In this document: piece by piece, positions 8,020 to 49,520 of the stretch
Layout: each line of letters opens with the position of its first letter
How positions within the stretch are numbered: the first letter of the stretch is position 1
Assembly (NCBI RefSeq): GCF_029478095.1
Contig: NZ_JAKOAV010000004.1
Span: 1-64,000 of the forward strand
DNA length: 64,000 bases
DNA from: Pelotomaculum isophthalicicum JI
GTDB taxonomy: Bacteria > Bacillota > Desulfotomaculia > Desulfotomaculales > Pelotomaculaceae
Direction: 5' to 3'
The notes under the pieces: model-generated
Databases searched by the model: none
What the model was told of the DNA's origin: nothing
What the model saw: the letters and a program-made list of their open reading frames with translations, nothing else
Translations under genes and position numbers: made by a program

Positions 8020-8946
8020 TCACCTTCTTCTCAACTGACTTGACGCTTGGTTCGCATTTAGCGGCTTGCTCCTGGCGCTCTCCAGCACCGGCGTGAGTTT
8101 TATAGCGGCAATTAACTTTTCGATGTCCTTATGTACAGGTACAATATAAAGCCCAACATCACCGGTATCCGGGTTCTTCCTGGCTAGAGGGGTAAATTCA
8201 GGCAAGTCCACATCTTTCTTTGTTCCCAAGAAAACCGCCGCGGTAAAGGCAATCGCCGTCCGCTGTCCGATATCGTGAATAGTGGCACGCGCGTTGCTAT
8301 CTCTGGGTTTGATCCTCACAGCTAATCCGTCTCGCAATATTTTATCCCGCATTGACTTTAGGCCAATATTAACCAAGCCAATCTCGTCAACTTTTAAGAT
8401 GCCCTCCTCAAAGCTCAATCTTGCAGGTACAACATCACATATATCACCGATTAACTCGCCCGACATAAAATAATAGCTGGCGTAGAGCATGAGGAAGGCT
8501 GCGAATACCGCGGCCGGGATGCCGCCAAACTGGGCGGCAAAAGCGGTAATGAGGGATGTCCCCATCACCAGATAGTTCCTTGCTTCAAAAGTCCTCGCTA
8601 TTCCTTCGATGTAGTCCAGACCTCTTTTTACCAATTCTGTTTTCTCCAGGCTTTCCAATGTTTGCCGCTCCACATTGCGAATTTCCCGGAATTGCTGCGC
8701 GGCCAATGATAAAAAAGTCACTGCCACAAAATCGGGTTTCAATAGAGCGGGAACAGCGACCGCCCCCAAAGCGGAAGCAATTAAGCCAAGTGCCGTATGG
8801 GTCAGATAGCCGTGCGGGTACCCGGGATATTGACGGTAGTCAATCCGCAGCAAAATGATTCGGGACGCAGTGCCGGCTAGGACACCGATCAATATCACAG
8901 CCAGGTAATCAGGATAATAATGTGACAGTCCCGTCACCCCCTGCAA
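8020..8946 (-). CDS. YIEGIA family membrane protein
   Basis: The name motif is visible as GLDYIEGIARTFEARNY near residue 110-125. The protein has hydrophobic segments near residues 15-32 (DYLAVILIGVLAG), 50-70 and 130-160, so it is probably a membrane protein. The C-terminal part is soluble and includes a VGLYIVPVHKD segment. Two TTG starts are possible; the one at 8946 has GGAG 5 nt upstream, while the one at 8979 has no clear ribosome site. The family is known mainly from spore-forming Firmicutes and has no firm function. Confidence 0.8.
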   Translation of the reverse strand: MQGVTGLSHYYPDYLAVILIGVLAGTASRIILLRIDYRQYPGYPHGYLTHTALGLIASALGAVAVPALLKPDFVAVTFLSLAAQQFREIRNVERQTLESLEKTELVKRGLDYIEGIARTFEARNYLVMGTSLITAFAAQFGGIPAAVFAAFLMLYASYYFMSGELIGDICDVVPARLSFEEGILKVDEIGLVNIGLKSMRDKILRDGLAVRIKPRDSNARATIHDIGQRTAIAFTAAVFLGTKKDVDLPEFTPLARKNPDTGDVGLYIVPVHKDIEKLIAAIKLTPVLESARSKPLNANQASSQLRRR

Positions 8947-20645: not shown

Positions 20646-21461
20646 TTATGAAGCGCTGTCAAGCAACGCGGTTTTAAATTCCCTTGTCAGGTTCTCCACC
20701 GCCGTTCCGGCGGCTTGAGAACTGCCGCTATCGGCTATTAATTTAACAATGGCGCTTCCCACCACGACAGCGTCGCAATACCTGGACATCCGCGCCCCTT
20801 GTTCCGGGTCCGCGATACCGAATCCTATGGCCAGGGGCAATGAGGTATGGCTGCGCACCCTGCCGGTAAAGCTTTCTATGTCAGTCCCGATTTCCTTCCT
20901 GGCGCCGGTTACTCCGGTTACCGAGACACAATAAACAAATCCCATCGCCTTTGAAGCTATCCGGCTTAATCTGCGATCAGTAGTGACAGGCGAAACAAGA
21001 GGAATAAGGTCTAATCCTTCCTTTATCGCCAGTTCCATCAACGGACCCGACTCTTCCAGCGGCAAATCAGGCACTATTAAGCCGCTTACACCCGCGGAAG
21101 CGGCTTCAGCTATGAACCTATCCAACCCAAATCTGTAAAAGGGGTTGCAGTAGCCCATTAATACTAGAGGAGCCCGGCAATTACTCTTAATCTTTTTTAC
21201 CGTATCCAGGATTTTAGCTAACGTTGTCCCGGCGGCCAGAGCCCGGCTGGATGCCTGCTGGATCACCGGACCATCAGCCAAAGGATCGGAAAACGGCACT
21301 CCCAGTTCAATAATATCCGCTCCCGCCGCATCCATGCGCAGCGCCAAATCTACCGTACTGGACAGGTCAGGGTCACCGGCTGTGATAAAAGTAATCAAGC
21401 CTTTTTTTCCTTCTAACCGCAGCTTGTCAAGACATACTTCAATGATGCTGTTGCTGTTCAT
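20646..21461 (-). CDS. trpA: Tryptophan synthase alpha chain
   Basis: TrpA cleaves indole-3-glycerol phosphate to indole. Motifs are [10 protein letters not shown] near residue 24, [18 protein letters not shown] near 50 with the catalytic Glu and Asp, [10 protein letters not shown] near 131 and VVVGSAIVK near 233. The length of 271 aa is normal. It overlaps trpB by 4 nt, which couples translation of the two subunits of the alpha2-beta2 enzyme. Confidence 0.97.
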
Positions 21462-22684
21462 ATGTTCACCCCCGGTTCCCCCGCTACGGCGGGTATATCC
21501 TTGTCTCCACGCCCGGAGAGGTTTATCACTATAATCTTTTCAGGTGGAAGTGACGGAGCCAGTTTGACGGCCTCGGCTATCGCGTGCGAGCTTTCAAGCG
21601 CCGGGATGATCCCGTCAGTGCGGCAAAGCAATTGAAAAGCCGCCAGCGCTTCCGTGTCGGTGGCCGTCGTGTAATTCACCCGCCCGGTATCTTTCAGATA
21701 AGCGTGCTCCGGCCCGACACCCGGGTAATCAAGCCCGGCGGCGATAGAATGAGGTATTGTTATTTGACCGTCATCATTTTGTAAAATGTAACTGTATGAG
21801 CCGTGCAGCACTCCGGGGCATCCCCGGTTGAGCGTGGCGGAGTGCTCTGCAGTGGCCAGCCCGTGCCCCGCGGCTTCAATCCCGATCAGTTTAACTTCTT
21901 GATCAGCAAGGAAAGAGTAAAAAATACCCATAGCGTTGCTGCCACCGCCGACACAGGCCAGGACATAATCAGGCAGCCGGCCGGCAGTTTCCAGCACCTG
22001 CCGCCTGGTCTCCTCCCCTATTACTGACTGGAAATCCCTGACCATTTGCGGATATGGATGCGGGCCGGCGACCGAGCCAATCAGGTAGTAAGTATCCCTA
22101 ACATTGGTAACCCAGTCCCTGATGGTTTCATTCATCGCATCCTTCAGAGTCCTGCTGCCGCTTGTCACCGGAACAACCTCCGCGCCAAGCAGGCGCATCC
22201 GGAAAACATTGGGACTTTGCCGCCTGATATCTTCCTCTCCCATATAAATAGCACACTTTAAACCAAACAGGGCGGCAGCCGTAGCTGTAGCCACTCCGTG
22301 CTGGCCGGCGCCCGTTTCCGCGATTATCCTGTTCTTGCGCATCCGGCGGGCCAGGAGAATTTGACCGATCGCGTTATTGATCTTGTGCGCGCCGGTATGG
22401 TTCAGGTCTTCTCTCTTGAGGTATATTCTCGCGCCGCCACAGTGTCTGGTCAGTCCTTCCGCAAAATAGAGGGGGGAAGGCCGGCCCACATAATGTTTCA
22501 GGTATCCCTCCAGTTCCTTATGAAACTGAGGGTCCTCAATGGCATCCGCATAAGCTTTTTCCAGCTCTTCCAGAGCCGGCATCAATACCTCGGGAATAAA
22601 ACGGCCGCCGTAAGCGCCGAAGTATCCACGTGTATCCGGTAAAGTAATGCAATTGTCTGCTAAGTCAGACGAATTCTTCATCAT
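21458..22684 (-). CDS. trpB: Tryptophan synthase beta chain
   Basis: TrpB is the PLP enzyme that joins indole with serine. The PLP lysine lies in [15 protein letters not shown] near residue 95, and the phosphate-binding loop is [10 protein letters not shown] near 240. [10 protein letters not shown] near 119 holds the catalytic Glu. The protein is 408 aa, a standard TrpB1 type. The ATG has GGAGG 7 nt upstream, and only 16 nt separate it from the trpC stop, so no trpF lies between. Confidence 0.97.
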
Positions 22685-22700: not shown

Positions 22701-23498
22701 TTACAAACCCTCCCGGACTCGCCCGCCTTTCAGTTGATTTAAGCCGGCGCCGGGATCCGGGCTGCGCACCAGGGCCTCGCCTACCAGCGCGGCGTGCACC
22801 CCTTTTTCCCGCAGTTTTAGGATGTCCTGATAACTTTTAATGCCGCTTTCAGAAACAACTGTGATCTGGTTATTCGTTATCAGGCTTCTCAGTTTAAAAG
22901 TCACACTGAGGTCGGTTTCAAAGGTCTTAAGATTGCGGTTGTTGATGCCGATAATAGATGCGCCGGTCGACAAGACATTAATCAGTTCTAGTTCCGTATG
23001 CACCTCCACCAGGCAAGATAGTCCCAGTCCGGCGGCTATTTCCTGAAACTCTTCCAATTGATCCTGTTTGAGCGCCGCAGCAATCAAAAGTATGGCGTCA
23101 GCGCCAAGAACACGTGATTCATAAATCTGAAAGGGGTCAATGATAAAATCTTTTCGCAAAACCGGTATGCTCGTTACCTTTTTAACCAAAGTTAAATGAG
23201 ACGGGTGACCGAGGAAAAATTTTTCCTCGGTTAACACAGATATAGCGGACGCACCCTCGCGTTCATACGACCGCGCCAACTGTTCGGGTTCGTACTGATG
23301 CCGGATAATGCCCTTTGATGGTGAAGCTTTTTTGGCTTCGGCGATTATCGCCACCTGCCCGGGCAGTCGCAAGGCGGGGCCAAAAGGGCGCGGCGCAGGC
23401 AACGTCGGAATTACCGTTTGTAATGCTTCTATTGGTGTTTTTTCTTTAAGCGCAGCCAGTTCCAGTTCCTTGCTGGCAATAATTTTTGATAAGATCAC
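22701..23498 (-). CDS. trpC: Indole-3-glycerol-phosphate synthase
   Basis: TrpC closes the indole ring from CdRP. It is a TIM barrel of 265 aa with IAEAKKASPSKG near residue 52, SVLTEEKFFLG near 85, VLRKDFIIDPFQIYE near 113 and GINNRNLKTF near 184. The GTG start has GGTGG 7 nt upstream. It is a stand-alone TrpC, not fused to TrpF. The gap on its 5' side, where trpD would be expected, holds repeats. Confidence 0.97.
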   Translation of the reverse strand: MILSKIIASKELELAALKEKTPIEALQTVIPTLPAPRPFGPALRLPGQVAIIAEAKKASPSKGIIRHQYEPEQLARSYEREGASAISVLTEEKFFLGHPSHLTLVKKVTSIPVLRKDFIIDPFQIYESRVLGADAILLIAAALKQDQLEEFQEIAAGLGLSCLVEVHTELELINVLSTGASIIGINNRNLKTFETDLSVTFKLRSLITNNQITVVSESGIKSYQDILKLREKGVHAALVGEALVRSPDPGAGLNQLKGGRVREGL

Positions 23499-23534
23499 TG
23501 AAAGTCCACCTTTATAATTCAGGTATTCAGAATC

Positions 23535-23976
<442 letters not shown>

Positions 23977-23986
23977 TAATATCGCT

Positions 23987-24556
23987 TCAGTTGCGAGTTA
24001 AAAAGTTCTGCAAAATTTTATGGCCATGCTCAGTTAAAATTGATTCCGGGTGAAACTGGACACCTTCCACAGCGTACTTGCGGTGGCGAATACCCATAAC
24101 CTCGCCTTCCTCGGTCCACGCGGTAATTTCAAAGCATTCAGGCAAGCTTTCCCTTTCAACGATTAGAGAATGGTACCTGGTTGCGGTAAAAGGTGAAGGT
24201 ATTTCGTGAAAAAGCGAACCGCCGTCATGATGGTGAATAGGCGATGTCTTTCCATGCATCAGCCGGCTCGCCCGCACCACTTTACCGCCGAAAGCCTGCC
24301 CGATAGCCTGGTGCCCGAGACAAACTCCTAAAATTGGGATAACGCCGGCGAAGCGTTCAATGACTGCTAGTGATATACCGGCTTCGTCAGGGGAACAGGG
24401 ACCGGGAGAGATAATAATGTGTTCCGGGTCCATTTTCACAATTTCATCACAGGTGATCTGGTCGTTGCGGTAAACCCGGACGTCTTCACCAAGTTCACCC
24501 AAATACTGCACAAGATTATAAGTGAACGAATCATAATTATCAATCATTAAAACCAT
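23987..24556 (-). CDS. trpG: Anthranilate synthase glutamine amidotransferase subunit
   Basis: TrpG supplies ammonia from glutamine to TrpE. The nucleophile cysteine lies in [15 protein letters not shown] near residue 78, with the catalytic His and Glu in [14 protein letters not shown] near 168. [15 protein letters not shown] near 49 is also typical. It starts directly after the trpE stop. It could also serve folate synthesis (PabA) if pabB is elsewhere. Confidence 0.95.
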
Positions 24557-26014
24557 TTACCCAACCTCCCTGAGGGTATTTAACAGCGCGCCGGCCTTGT
24601 TTATTGTTTCCTCGTATTCTTTTTCCGGGTCTGAATCAGCTACTATCCCGGCGCCGGCCTGGACATAAGCGCAGCCGTCATGGATGACCATAGTCCTGAT
24701 AGCGATTGCCGCGTCCAGGTTCCCGGTGAATCCCAGATATCCTACCGCGCCGGCGTAAATTCCCCTACCGTCGGGCTCCAACTCATCAATTATCTCCATA
24801 GCCCGCACCTTGGGCGCCCCTGTTACCGTGCCCGCCGGAAAACAAGCCCGCAATGCGTCATAACAATTATTGCCGGATGACATCCGCCCTTTCACATTTG
24901 ATACTATGTGCATGACATGAGAGAATTTTTCGATTTCCATAAAACGCGGCAATTCTATGCTGCCCGGCTTGCATACCTTGCCCAAATCGTTGCGTCCGAG
25001 GTCTACCAGCATCAGGTGCTCGGCTTTCTCCTTCTCATCGCCCAGCAATTCCGCCGCAAGCGCCCCGTCAGTGTCCTTATCTTTGCCGCGGGGCCGGGTT
25101 CCGGCGATAGGGCATGTTTCGACAATACCGTCTTCCACTCTAACCAGCATTTCGGGTGAAGAACCAATCACCTGGTATGCGCCGAAGTCAAGATAATAAA
25201 GATATGGCGAGGGGTTAAGCGCCCTTAATTTCCGGTAAACATCAAACGGCTCCCCTTGAAAAGGGATCCGGAAACGCTGTGACAAAACCACCTGAATGAT
25301 ATCCCCCGCCTTGATGTATTCCTTCGCCCGCGCCACTCGTTCAATAAATTTTTCCCGGGTCATATTTTTTTCAAACGAAGATGTAGTAATGTTTTTGATT
25401 TGTTTGTTCTCAATCGAAACGTTGCTTTTAACCGCATTGATCACGCTCTGCAGTTGGTATTCAACATTATCATATGTTTTATCGGGTTTTTCTCCCGGTA
25501 TGCTGTTTACGATGATTTTCAAGGTATGCTTGACATGATCGAAAATTAACACTGTACTGGCAAAGATAAAGCTGCTCTCCGGAAGATCGGGGATGTTTTC
25601 CCGGGTGATATTTATCTTTTCAAAATGCCGGACTATTCCGTAGCCCAGGTACCCCACCGCGCCGCCGAAAAAACGCGGCAGACCTCCCCCTTTATAGACG
25701 CGATAGCTGGAAACAAGCTGTTCCAGGCTTGTCAGGGGCGATCCAGTTACCTTTTTAACGTCGCAACCACTGGTTATCCGTGACTCGTCTCCACTGGAGG
25801 TAAAGCTGATGAAAGGATCGATACCGATAAATGAGTATCGGGCCAGGTTTTCACCGCCTTCCACGCTTTCCAGCAAATAAGCCGGGCCTTTCGGTGATAT
25901 TTTCTTGAAAATGCTGATTGGTGTGTCCATATCAGCATTTATTTCATAACAAACCGGAATCAGGTCATAATTTTGGCTCAATAACAAGTATTCATGCCTG
26001 TTCGGGATGTTCAA
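24557..26014 (-). CDS. trpE: Anthranilate synthase component I
   Basis: TrpE makes anthranilate from chorismate with TrpG. The N-terminal part has LLESVEGGENLARYS near residue 47, the tryptophan-binding LLES motif that implies feedback inhibition. The chorismate domain shows IAGTRPRGKDKDTD near 305, GRNDLGKV near 341 and GTVTGAPKVRAMEII near 400. The TTG start at 26014 is chosen because GGGGG lies 8 nt upstream and because a longer reading would begin inside the leader terminator; it gives 485 aa. It is the first gene after the TRAP-type leader. Confidence 0.95.
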   Translation of the reverse strand: MNIPNRHEYLLLSQNYDLIPVCYEINADMDTPISIFKKISPKGPAYLLESVEGGENLARYSFIGIDPFISFTSSGDESRITSGCDVKKVTGSPLTSLEQLVSSYRVYKGGGLPRFFGGAVGYLGYGIVRHFEKINITRENIPDLPESSFIFASTVLIFDHVKHTLKIIVNSIPGEKPDKTYDNVEYQLQSVINAVKSNVSIENKQIKNITTSSFEKNMTREKFIERVARAKEYIKAGDIIQVVLSQRFRIPFQGEPFDVYRKLRALNPSPYLYYLDFGAYQVIGSSPEMLVRVEDGIVETCPIAGTRPRGKDKDTDGALAAELLGDEKEKAEHLMLVDLGRNDLGKVCKPGSIELPRFMEIEKFSHVMHIVSNVKGRMSSGNNCYDALRACFPAGTVTGAPKVRAMEIIDELEPDGRGIYAGAVGYLGFTGNLDAAIAIRTMVIHDGCAYVQAGAGIVADSDPEKEYEETINKAGALLNTLREVG

Positions 26015-26041
26015 ATTATCTACCCCCTTGGAAAAAGCAAA

Positions 26042-26067
26042 AACCGGCACTCAAATGAGCACCGGTT
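26042..26067 (-). terminator. Attenuator terminator upstream of trpE
   Basis: On the minus strand AACCGGUGCUC and GAGUGCCGGUU form an 11-bp stem (two G-U wobbles) with loop AUUU, then UUUGCUUUUU. It lies 27 nt before the trpE start codon. The 5' arm can alternatively pair with AUGAG...CGG at the end of the triplet tract. Confidence 0.85.
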
Positions 26068-26092
26068 AACTTTTCAAATTAAATACCCGCGA

Positions 26093-26141
26093 CTCATCTC
26101 AGCTCAACTTGTCTTATTCTCAACTCATCTAAACTTAACTA
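26093..26141 (-). promoter_or_regulatory. TRAP-type binding site: ten NAG triplets in the trpE leader
   Basis: Read on the minus strand the leader has UAG, AAG, UAG, GAG, GAG, AAG, AAG, GAG, GAG, GAG, each separated by 2 nt apart from one 3-nt spacer. This 5-nt period over 49 nt is the known pattern bound by the 11-subunit TRAP (MtrB) protein with tryptophan. The last triplet overlaps a possible antiterminator. MtrB itself is not in this window. Confidence 0.75.
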
Positions 26142-26147
26142 TAAGTA

Positions 26148-26176
26148 AAATTAGCACAGCGGAAACCTTGTGTCAA
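26148..26176 (-). promoter_or_regulatory. Sigma-A promoter of the trp operon
   Basis: TTGACA (26171-26176) and TAATTT (26148-26153) are separated by 17 nt on the minus strand. The expected start is near 26141, at the first triplet of the TRAP-type site. Confidence 0.8.
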
Positions 26177-35687: not shown

Positions 35688-35714
35688 ATTACTGTGCTAA
35701 TCGAATACATACAC

Positions 35715-35803
35715 AGCTTACGCTTCCCTACGACGGCATTACCCGCATCAGGTTCAAAGGGTTGAGAATACTCTCTCTCAGCCTTGCGGCACCCCTAGCA
35801 GCT
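35715..35803 (-). promoter_or_regulatory. TPP riboswitch (THI element)
   Basis: The minus strand reads GGGGTGCC, GGCTGAGA, ACCCTTTGAACCTGAT, GGGTAATGCC and CGTAGGGAA in the order of the THI box. TPP binding should favour the downstream terminator and shut off thiS-G-H-E-C. Confidence 0.96.
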
Positions 35804-35827
35804 ATATTTAATTTTAGGATTTAGCAA

Positions 35828-47490: not shown

Positions 47491-49083
47491 CTAAAGTTTT
47501 ATTTTACCGTTTATTGTTACTTCCCTCTTTCCAATATATTTCTCACGAAGTTTCGGCTTGTCAATTTTCCCTGTCGGGTTTCGCAAAACCACATCAAAGA
47601 CAATTCTTTCAGGCCACTTAAATTTAGCCAAGCCAGCGTTCTTGCAATGTTCTATAACCTCTCCCTCGGTCATGGTTTCTCCATCTTTTAGGGTTACGAT
47701 AGCCATAGCGATTTCCACCAACCGTTCATGCGGGTAACCAATAATCGCCACATCCTGAATTTTTGGGTGACTAAACAACACCGCTTCAATTTCTACCGGA
47801 AAAATATTCTCGCCACCCCTGATGATAAGGTCTTTCTTCCTGTCGACAATGTAAAAATAGCCTTCCTCATCAATCTTTACCAAATCGCCGGTATAGAGCC
47901 AACCGTCTTTAATAGTTTTTGCAGTCATCTCGGGGTTGGAGTAATACTCCTTCATTATTCTGGACCCTTTTAAGATTAGCTCTCCTACTCCGCCGGCTGG
48001 AACATCATTTCCATTATCGTCAACCGCGCGGGCTTCCATATAAAAAGTGGGTTTTCCAATCGAGCCCGGTTTTCTCAAAACGTCTTCGTCGTATAAATTA
48101 ATGCTCCCGCCTCCACCGCCTTCAGTAATGCCATAAATATTGCCTGTTTTGAATGGGAATATCCTTTTTATATCCTGCAGCAAAGAAGGAGGAACCGGTT
48201 GCGCGCCAATTACCAAAGAACCGGTAAAGTGCGAAAAATCGTACTCTTTAATATTGATTTCACCTTTTTTTATCGCATTTACCGCGTCTGACATGGTTGG
48301 TACCGTGATCCAACTGTTATTAACCTTTTCTTCCACTATACAATCGAGCAGCCATTTCGGTTGCAATCCATTCAAAATAACAATTTTACCGCCAGCGAGG
48401 TAGCATGGAAAGGAAAGAAAGAAACTGCCGCTATGATAAAAAGGCTGGGGCGCCAGATATACTGTTTCTTTGCCTTCATCATAAGTTAGGGCATTGCCGA
48501 CACCTATTTCGTACAAAGTTTTGTGAGACTGGCAAACAGGTTTTGGCGGTCCGGTCGTTCCAGAGGTAAACATCAACTCCGCCGGGTCATCGTCATCTAC
48601 ATCAACAAGAATATCCTCAACACTGGCGTTTTGAATAATACTTTCGTATGCGATCATACCGCCGGGAATTTGCTCGCCAATACAGATATAATGTTTTATG
48701 GTTTTCATTTCTTCCTGTATCGGTTGAACCTTCGATAGAAAACCGTCGCTCAGAATAAAAGCAACCGGTCCACAAGCCTTGGCCGCATGCATGATATCCT
48801 GACTGGCAAAGCGAAAACTAAGGGGAACAGCAGTGGCGCCTACTCTCAAAATAGCGTGAAACGTGACATACCACTCTATGCTGTTCATTTGCAGGTGAAG
48901 AACGAAATCACCTTTTTTTACGCCTAAATTATGCTTCAGATAATTGGCCACTTTATTTGTTTGTTCGTTAAATTCCTTCCAGGTGAGGACTCTCCTCTCG
49001 CTTCGCTCTGGATTACGTTCAATAAGAAAATCCTGGCCAGGATATTTTTTGGCATTAATCATGCCGAAATATGCAAAGTTCAT
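47491..49083 (-). CDS. Acyl-CoA ligase (class I adenylate-forming enzyme)
   Basis: The enzyme activates a carboxylic acid with ATP and CoA. The P-loop is MFTSGTTGPPKP near residue 175-186, the A5 motif NIYGITEGGG near 300, the A7 motif DGWLYTGDLVKID near 400 and the hinge DRKKDLIIRGGENIFPVEIE near 420. The A10 lysine lies in NPTGKIDKPKLREKY. The substrate cannot be deduced from sequence; it could be a medium, branched or aromatic acid. The ATG (MNFAYFGMINAKKY) has GGGGTGG upstream. It stands behind a T-box leader, which is unusual for this enzyme class. Confidence 0.9.
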   Translation of the reverse strand: MNFAYFGMINAKKYPGQDFLIERNPERSERRVLTWKEFNEQTNKVANYLKHNLGVKKGDFVLHLQMNSIEWYVTFHAILRVGATAVPLSFRFASQDIMHAAKACGPVAFILSDGFLSKVQPIQEEMKTIKHYICIGEQIPGGMIAYESIIQNASVEDILVDVDDDDPAELMFTSGTTGPPKPVCQSHKTLYEIGVGNALTYDEGKETVYLAPQPFYHSGSFFLSFPCYLAGGKIVILNGLQPKWLLDCIVEEKVNNSWITVPTMSDAVNAIKKGEINIKEYDFSHFTGSLVIGAQPVPPSLLQDIKRIFPFKTGNIYGITEGGGGGSINLYDEDVLRKPGSIGKPTFYMEARAVDDNGNDVPAGGVGELILKGSRIMKEYYSNPEMTAKTIKDGWLYTGDLVKIDEEGYFYIVDRKKDLIIRGGENIFPVEIEAVLFSHPKIQDVAIIGYPHERLVEIAMAIVTLKDGETMTEGEVIEHCKNAGLAKFKWPERIVFDVVLRNPTGKIDKPKLREKYIGKREVTINGKIKL

Positions 49084-49141
49084 TTTTCCACCCCGGTTAT
49101 TTTGATATATGTTCATGATGTTAATTAATTGCCCGCAATGC

Positions 49142-49224: not shown

Positions 49225-49520
49225 AAGCCCCTCGCCCTATAGGGACGAGAAGCTTAATACTTTCGTGTACCACCCTGGTTGGCCTACAAACAACATAGTA
49301 CCCTTAATCAAGAGTACGGGAATTAATCCGATACCCCCTCCCTTGTAACGTTGGGATTACGTCCTAACCTACTGGCCGTGCGAAACGGTTTCAGCCGGCG
49401 TCTCCAGAGAGAACTTCGGCGGGCCTTTTCCTAAGAGCGCTTTCAGTCAACGACACTCTCTCCCTGAAGGAACTTAACCAGCTTACTTTTCTCCTTCATT
49501 GACTTTTACAATACATACTT
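49225..49520 (-). promoter_or_regulatory. T-box leader upstream of the acyl-CoA ligase gene
   Basis: On the minus strand the conserved T-box AGGGTGGTAC lies at about 49267-49276, followed by a terminator stem (AAGC...CTCGTCCC / GGGCGAG...GCTT, 49225-49255) and TTTTTT. A stem I with an AGUA motif lies 5' of this. The element should sense uncharged tRNA and allow read-through. The specifier could be GUU/GUC (Val) or UUC (Phe) after GAA near 49410; I cannot decide. Confidence 0.85.

Follow-up and report, generated by a model that had tools for sequence, protein, structure and literature searches.

How is the operon that begins with trpE controlled by the short leader that precedes it? A sequence-only reading of the window, meaning the whole 64-kb stretch of DNA that was analysed, had placed a TRAP-type attenuator at positions 26042–26176. 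Pairing, folding and genome comparison indicate that the leader very probably controls the trpE-trpG-trpC-trpB-trpA operon by TRAP-dependent transcription attenuation, with the following layout:

26148–26176, minus strand: promoter, with -35 TTGACA, a 17-nt spacer and a TGC-TAATTT -10 region (read from the sequence)
26093–26141, minus strand: predicted TRAP-binding tract of ten NAG triplets (sequence, chain score and pattern search)
26092–26099, minus strand: antiterminator 5′ arm AGAUGAGU, overlapping the last two triplets (pairing and folding)
26053–26060, minus strand: antiterminator 3′ arm GCUCAUUU, shared with the terminator 5′ arm and loop (pairing and folding)
26042–26067, minus strand: terminator hairpin of 11 bp with a U-rich tail 3′ of it (hairpin prediction and leader comparison)
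24557–26014, minus strand: trpE, with a TTG start and the Shine-Dalgarno sequence AAGGGGG at 26023–26029 (TIGR00564, 575.8 bits, over the cut-off, and Pfam)
23987–24556, minus strand: trpG (Pfam and NCBIfam family models)
22701–23498, minus strand: trpC, indole-glycerol-phosphate synthase (recognised from its translation)
21458–22684, minus strand: trpB (recognised from its translation)
20646–21461, minus strand: trpA (recognised from its translation)

The promoter had been described as near-consensus, which holds for the -35 element (TTGACA, 26176–26171, minus strand) but not for the -10 element (TAATTT, 26153–26148, minus strand), where only three of six positions match and the preceding TGC forms an extended -10 (TGn). 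A consensus promoter scanner did not detect this promoter (26148–26176). The leader is about 128 nt long, and its tract reads, 5′ to 3′ on the minus strand, UAG AAG UAG GAG GAG (aau) AAG AAG GAG GAG GAG. The composition (five GAG, two UAG and three AAG, 26141–26093) and the spacing (2 nt throughout apart from the 3-nt aau) are as originally described. The first UAG coincides with the predicted +1, so that this triplet may be incompletely transcribed, and the eleventh register is occupied by GCG (26090–26088, minus strand). AAG and GCG make weaker contacts with TRAP than GAG or UAG. The earlier suspicion that the AAG triplets are less than ideal and make the site weaker or differently tuned is of mild concern: seven of the ten triplets are GAG or UAG, and relatives carry other letters where the trpE tract has AAG. 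Overall, the tract has the form of a TRAP site (about 11 NAG triplets with N mostly G or U, separated by 2–3 nt).

Downstream of the tract, the terminator stem (26067–26042) contains six G-C pairs out of 11, and 27 nt separate it from the trpE start codon, TTG at 26014, in agreement with the sequence-only reading. The proposed antiterminator, AUGAG pairing with CUCAU, is real and extends further, to AGAUGAGU with GCUCAUUU plus an inner helix. The tract thus overlaps an antiterminator that excludes the terminator before trpE. When the two alternative folds were compared along a growing RNA, the antiterminator stood at 0.99–1.00 until the terminator 3′ arm emerged, and with the tract blocked the terminator formed at once, as had been proposed. 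For the full-length leader at equilibrium, folding favoured the terminator even without TRAP, and read-through must therefore be kinetic or aided by other factors. The six core antiterminator pairs are possible in 13 of 13 leaders compared and the seventh in 12 of 13, while terminator pairing is kept across leaders through G-C, A-U and G-U changes. Both GAG and CUC are under constraints unrelated to this pairing, so the antiterminator pairs hardly vary; their conservation alone is weak evidence, and the case for the switch relies on folding.

The regulator is encoded outside the window, as the sequence-only reading implied. A single mtrB gene was found elsewhere in the genome (G000:C21:27663-27860), recognised by Pfam (PF02081, E 1.1e-38) and by the NCBIfam equivalog model for MtrB (135.9 bits, cut-off 117). 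It is flanked by dnaE and pfkA, both recognised from translations, and comparison of its product with the PDB returned TRAPs alone. The residues through which TRAP contacts RNA, F32, E36, K37, D39, K56 and R58 (PMC3184956), are all identical to those in solved TRAPs, and are the same in MtrB of B. subtilis and G. stearothermophilus. Lys15 and Thr72 have been linked to 12-subunit TRAP rings (PMC3184956); the protein has Leu and Ser, respectively, in their place, which favours an 11-subunit ring, and a ring of 11 is accordingly predicted here from sequence. The gene is present in 24 of 25 family genomes and in 200 of the 398 genomes sampled from the phylum, and no NAG tract of its own was found before mtrB in the relatives inspected. 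Homologues of mtrB in some clostridial genomes were already remarked on in the 2000s.

We searched the relatives for the triplet period before trpE and found it conserved in several genera. With mtrB present and the period kept, neither ground for refutation named in the sequence-only reading was borne out. Eleven family trpE genes of at least 62% identity for which a leader sequence was available, our own included, were compared. Eight of their leaders carry 9–14 chained triplets; in the other three (L031, L032 and L033) the run is interrupted and the best chain has four. The terminator hairpin is kept in all 11. Among the matches listed, the same layout is shared by the trpE leaders of Desulfotruncus alcoholivorax (L084) and UBA4049 (L083), and NAG runs also precede trpE at some Paenibacillus, Gorillibacterium and Cohnella loci. 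Divergent trpE copies in two family genomes (G009 and G020) have T-boxes instead of the NAG tract. Our search of the open-access literature turned up no survey covering this group's TRAP sites; such surveys may exist in subscription journals.

Three other explanations of the leader were weighed. That the triplets are a chance run beside an ordinary terminator has a practically negligible probability. Runs of a few triplets do arise by chance, and our chain score, whose weights we chose ourselves, reaches 9 for the best unrelated NAG chain of the 64-kb window. Yet the trpE tract scores 23, which none of 1000 dinucleotide shuffles attained (mean 4.6, maximum 12), and in a background control covering the regions upstream of 79 trpE genes in diverse bacteria, mostly of distant phyla, most regions (among the matches listed) score 9 or less. 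A seven-triplet pattern matched nothing but the trpE leader in the 3.6-Mb genome, and its reversed control gave no match across 25 family genomes. A six-triplet pattern with strict 2-nt spacing returned no match, because the 3-nt spacer divides the trpE tract. With the tract conserved across genera and mtrB present, the chance reading was ruled out by conservation.

The remaining two explanations accept regulation of another kind. A different attenuator, either a tRNA-sensing T-box or a leader peptide with tryptophan codons, might be suspected since T-boxes do control further trp genes, both in this genome and among relatives. It is nevertheless extremely unlikely here: neither Rfam nor a genome-wide T-box covariance search gave a match at the trpE leader (26042–26176), the short leader reading frames hold no Trp codon, and the NAG tract would be left unexplained. 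It is also very unlikely that the tract serves translational repression, or termination by bound TRAP without a hairpin switch. There are precedents for both in B. subtilis, where TRAP keeps trpG, trpP and ycbK from being translated (PMC11255114) and is able to terminate transcription in vivo without the attenuator hairpin (PMC3913778). However, about 65 nt separate the end of the tract from the trpE ribosome-binding site downstream, and this interval holds a strong, conserved terminator that competes with the tract-containing antiterminator.

Under the TRAP-dependent attenuation favoured here, an MtrB ring would, when tryptophan is plentiful, bind tryptophan and wrap the NAG triplets of the emerging leader RNA. 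This would remove the antiterminator 5′ arm, the terminator would form, and transcription would end short of trpE. Under tryptophan shortage, the tract would stay free, its last triplets would pair with the terminator 5′ arm and polymerase would read through. We infer from these features both tryptophan-dependent binding of MtrB and actual termination at the trpE leader.

The order of elements is that of the B. subtilis trp leader, as had been noted: NAG tract and antiterminator, then terminator, then trpE. The trp leaders of B. subtilis and Geobacillus stearothermophilus likewise have NAG triplets spaced by 2–3 nt that overlap the antiterminator. In B. subtilis the leader measures 203 nt and has 11 G/UAG repeats (PMC3913778), compared with about 128 nt and ten NAG triplets, three of them AAG, in the present case. 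Moreover, the tract described here starts at the predicted 5′ end, so that a 5′ stem-loop would not fit, and, unlike in B. subtilis, trpG lies inside the operon and anti-TRAP was not found. TRAP of B. subtilis also has a more direct role in termination (PMC3913778). Another close counterpart is found in Desulfotruncus alcoholivorax DSM 16058, whose trpE leader shares the NAG triplets, the antiterminator and a near-identical ACTCATTTGAGTG hairpin; there, however, the tract is interrupted, with a best chain of five triplets, and trpE is about 54% identical. The attenuator itself is of a familiar kind, and it is the layout of the surrounding regulon that is less ordinary.

In this genus trpD is absent from the trpE operon. 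The trpG-trpC gap, 488 nt of non-coding DNA (window 23499–23986), is where relatives carry trpD; it contains an element delimited by 15-bp perfect inverted repeats (23583–23597 and 23823–23837) flanked by GGAGTCA repeats, which is missing at the sister species' locus. Relocated trpD genes of the same species (L171 2480-2700, minus strand) and of the sister species (L173 1280-1490, plus strand) have their own promoter, a nine-triplet chain (scores of 16 and 15, respectively, against a shuffle maximum of 11) and, after the tract, an antiterminator-like fold and a terminator. In the assembly of our own genome, the relocated-trpD leader ends at the contig end, just before the terminator. The sister species (G002) further has a trpDCF operon with a NAG tract (chain score 14) and a hairpin or terminator in front of it (L185, about 8440-8770, minus strand), whereas in our genome the operon trpB-trpA-trpD-trpC-trpF (L182 1375-6124, contig C31) lies behind a T-box of 112 bits with the tryptophan specifier UGG. 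The genes of this second operon were recognised from their translations, and trpD and trpF also through family searches.

Several relatives (L062–L069) carry a tract followed by a terminator-like hairpin before trpP, a gene for a TrpP-family tryptophan transporter (PF17099) that was searched for and not found in our own genome. TRAP triplets also precede trpP in B. subtilis, where TRAP blocks the ribosome and control is translational (PMC11255114). The hairpin after the relatives' tract is a difference from that system and suggests transcription attenuation rather than a translational block of the B. subtilis type. A NAG tract and hairpin also stand before an orphan trpB (L052 and L053, around position 1500) in two genomes without a trpE match. 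Seven family genomes (G003–G006, G017, G019 and G021) have mtrB and no trpE match, and in most of them the trpP or trpB leaders may be the remaining MtrB targets. In one genome only (G015), a NAG tract and hairpin were seen before an iron-type alcohol dehydrogenase gene (L049, around position 1500), which is possibly a new TRAP target.

Anti-TRAP (PF15777) was found neither in our own genome nor, above the cut-off, in the 25 family genomes, and the positive controls of the model, which include B. subtilis, were detected; a TRAP site is not defined by the presence of anti-TRAP. With the second trp operon lying behind a tryptophan T-box and anti-TRAP not found, the layout indicates that free tryptophan (through TRAP) and uncharged tRNA-Trp (through the T-box) are probably sensed by separate operons. 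More broadly, the chances seem evenly balanced that the TRAP attenuation regulon followed the moving trp genes (trpEGCBA, trpD and trpDCF, with trpP and the orphan trpB in relatives) and that the T-box operon, not inhibition of TRAP, senses uncharged tRNA-Trp. The textbook TRAP switch, mainly a Bacillus subject, is now placed in a phylum in which half of the sampled genomes have mtrB, and the alternation of TRAP and T-box control of one pathway among close relatives opens free-tryptophan and uncharged-tRNA sensing to comparison.

Two other RNA elements were seen in the window. An acyl-CoA ligase-like gene (47491–49116) is preceded by a T-box-like leader (49238–49508, minus strand; 81.6 bits, below the gathering score) in which UUC may act as a phenylalanine specifier, and a TPP riboswitch (35708–35806, minus strand; 75.8 bits) lies upstream of thiamine-synthesis-like genes.
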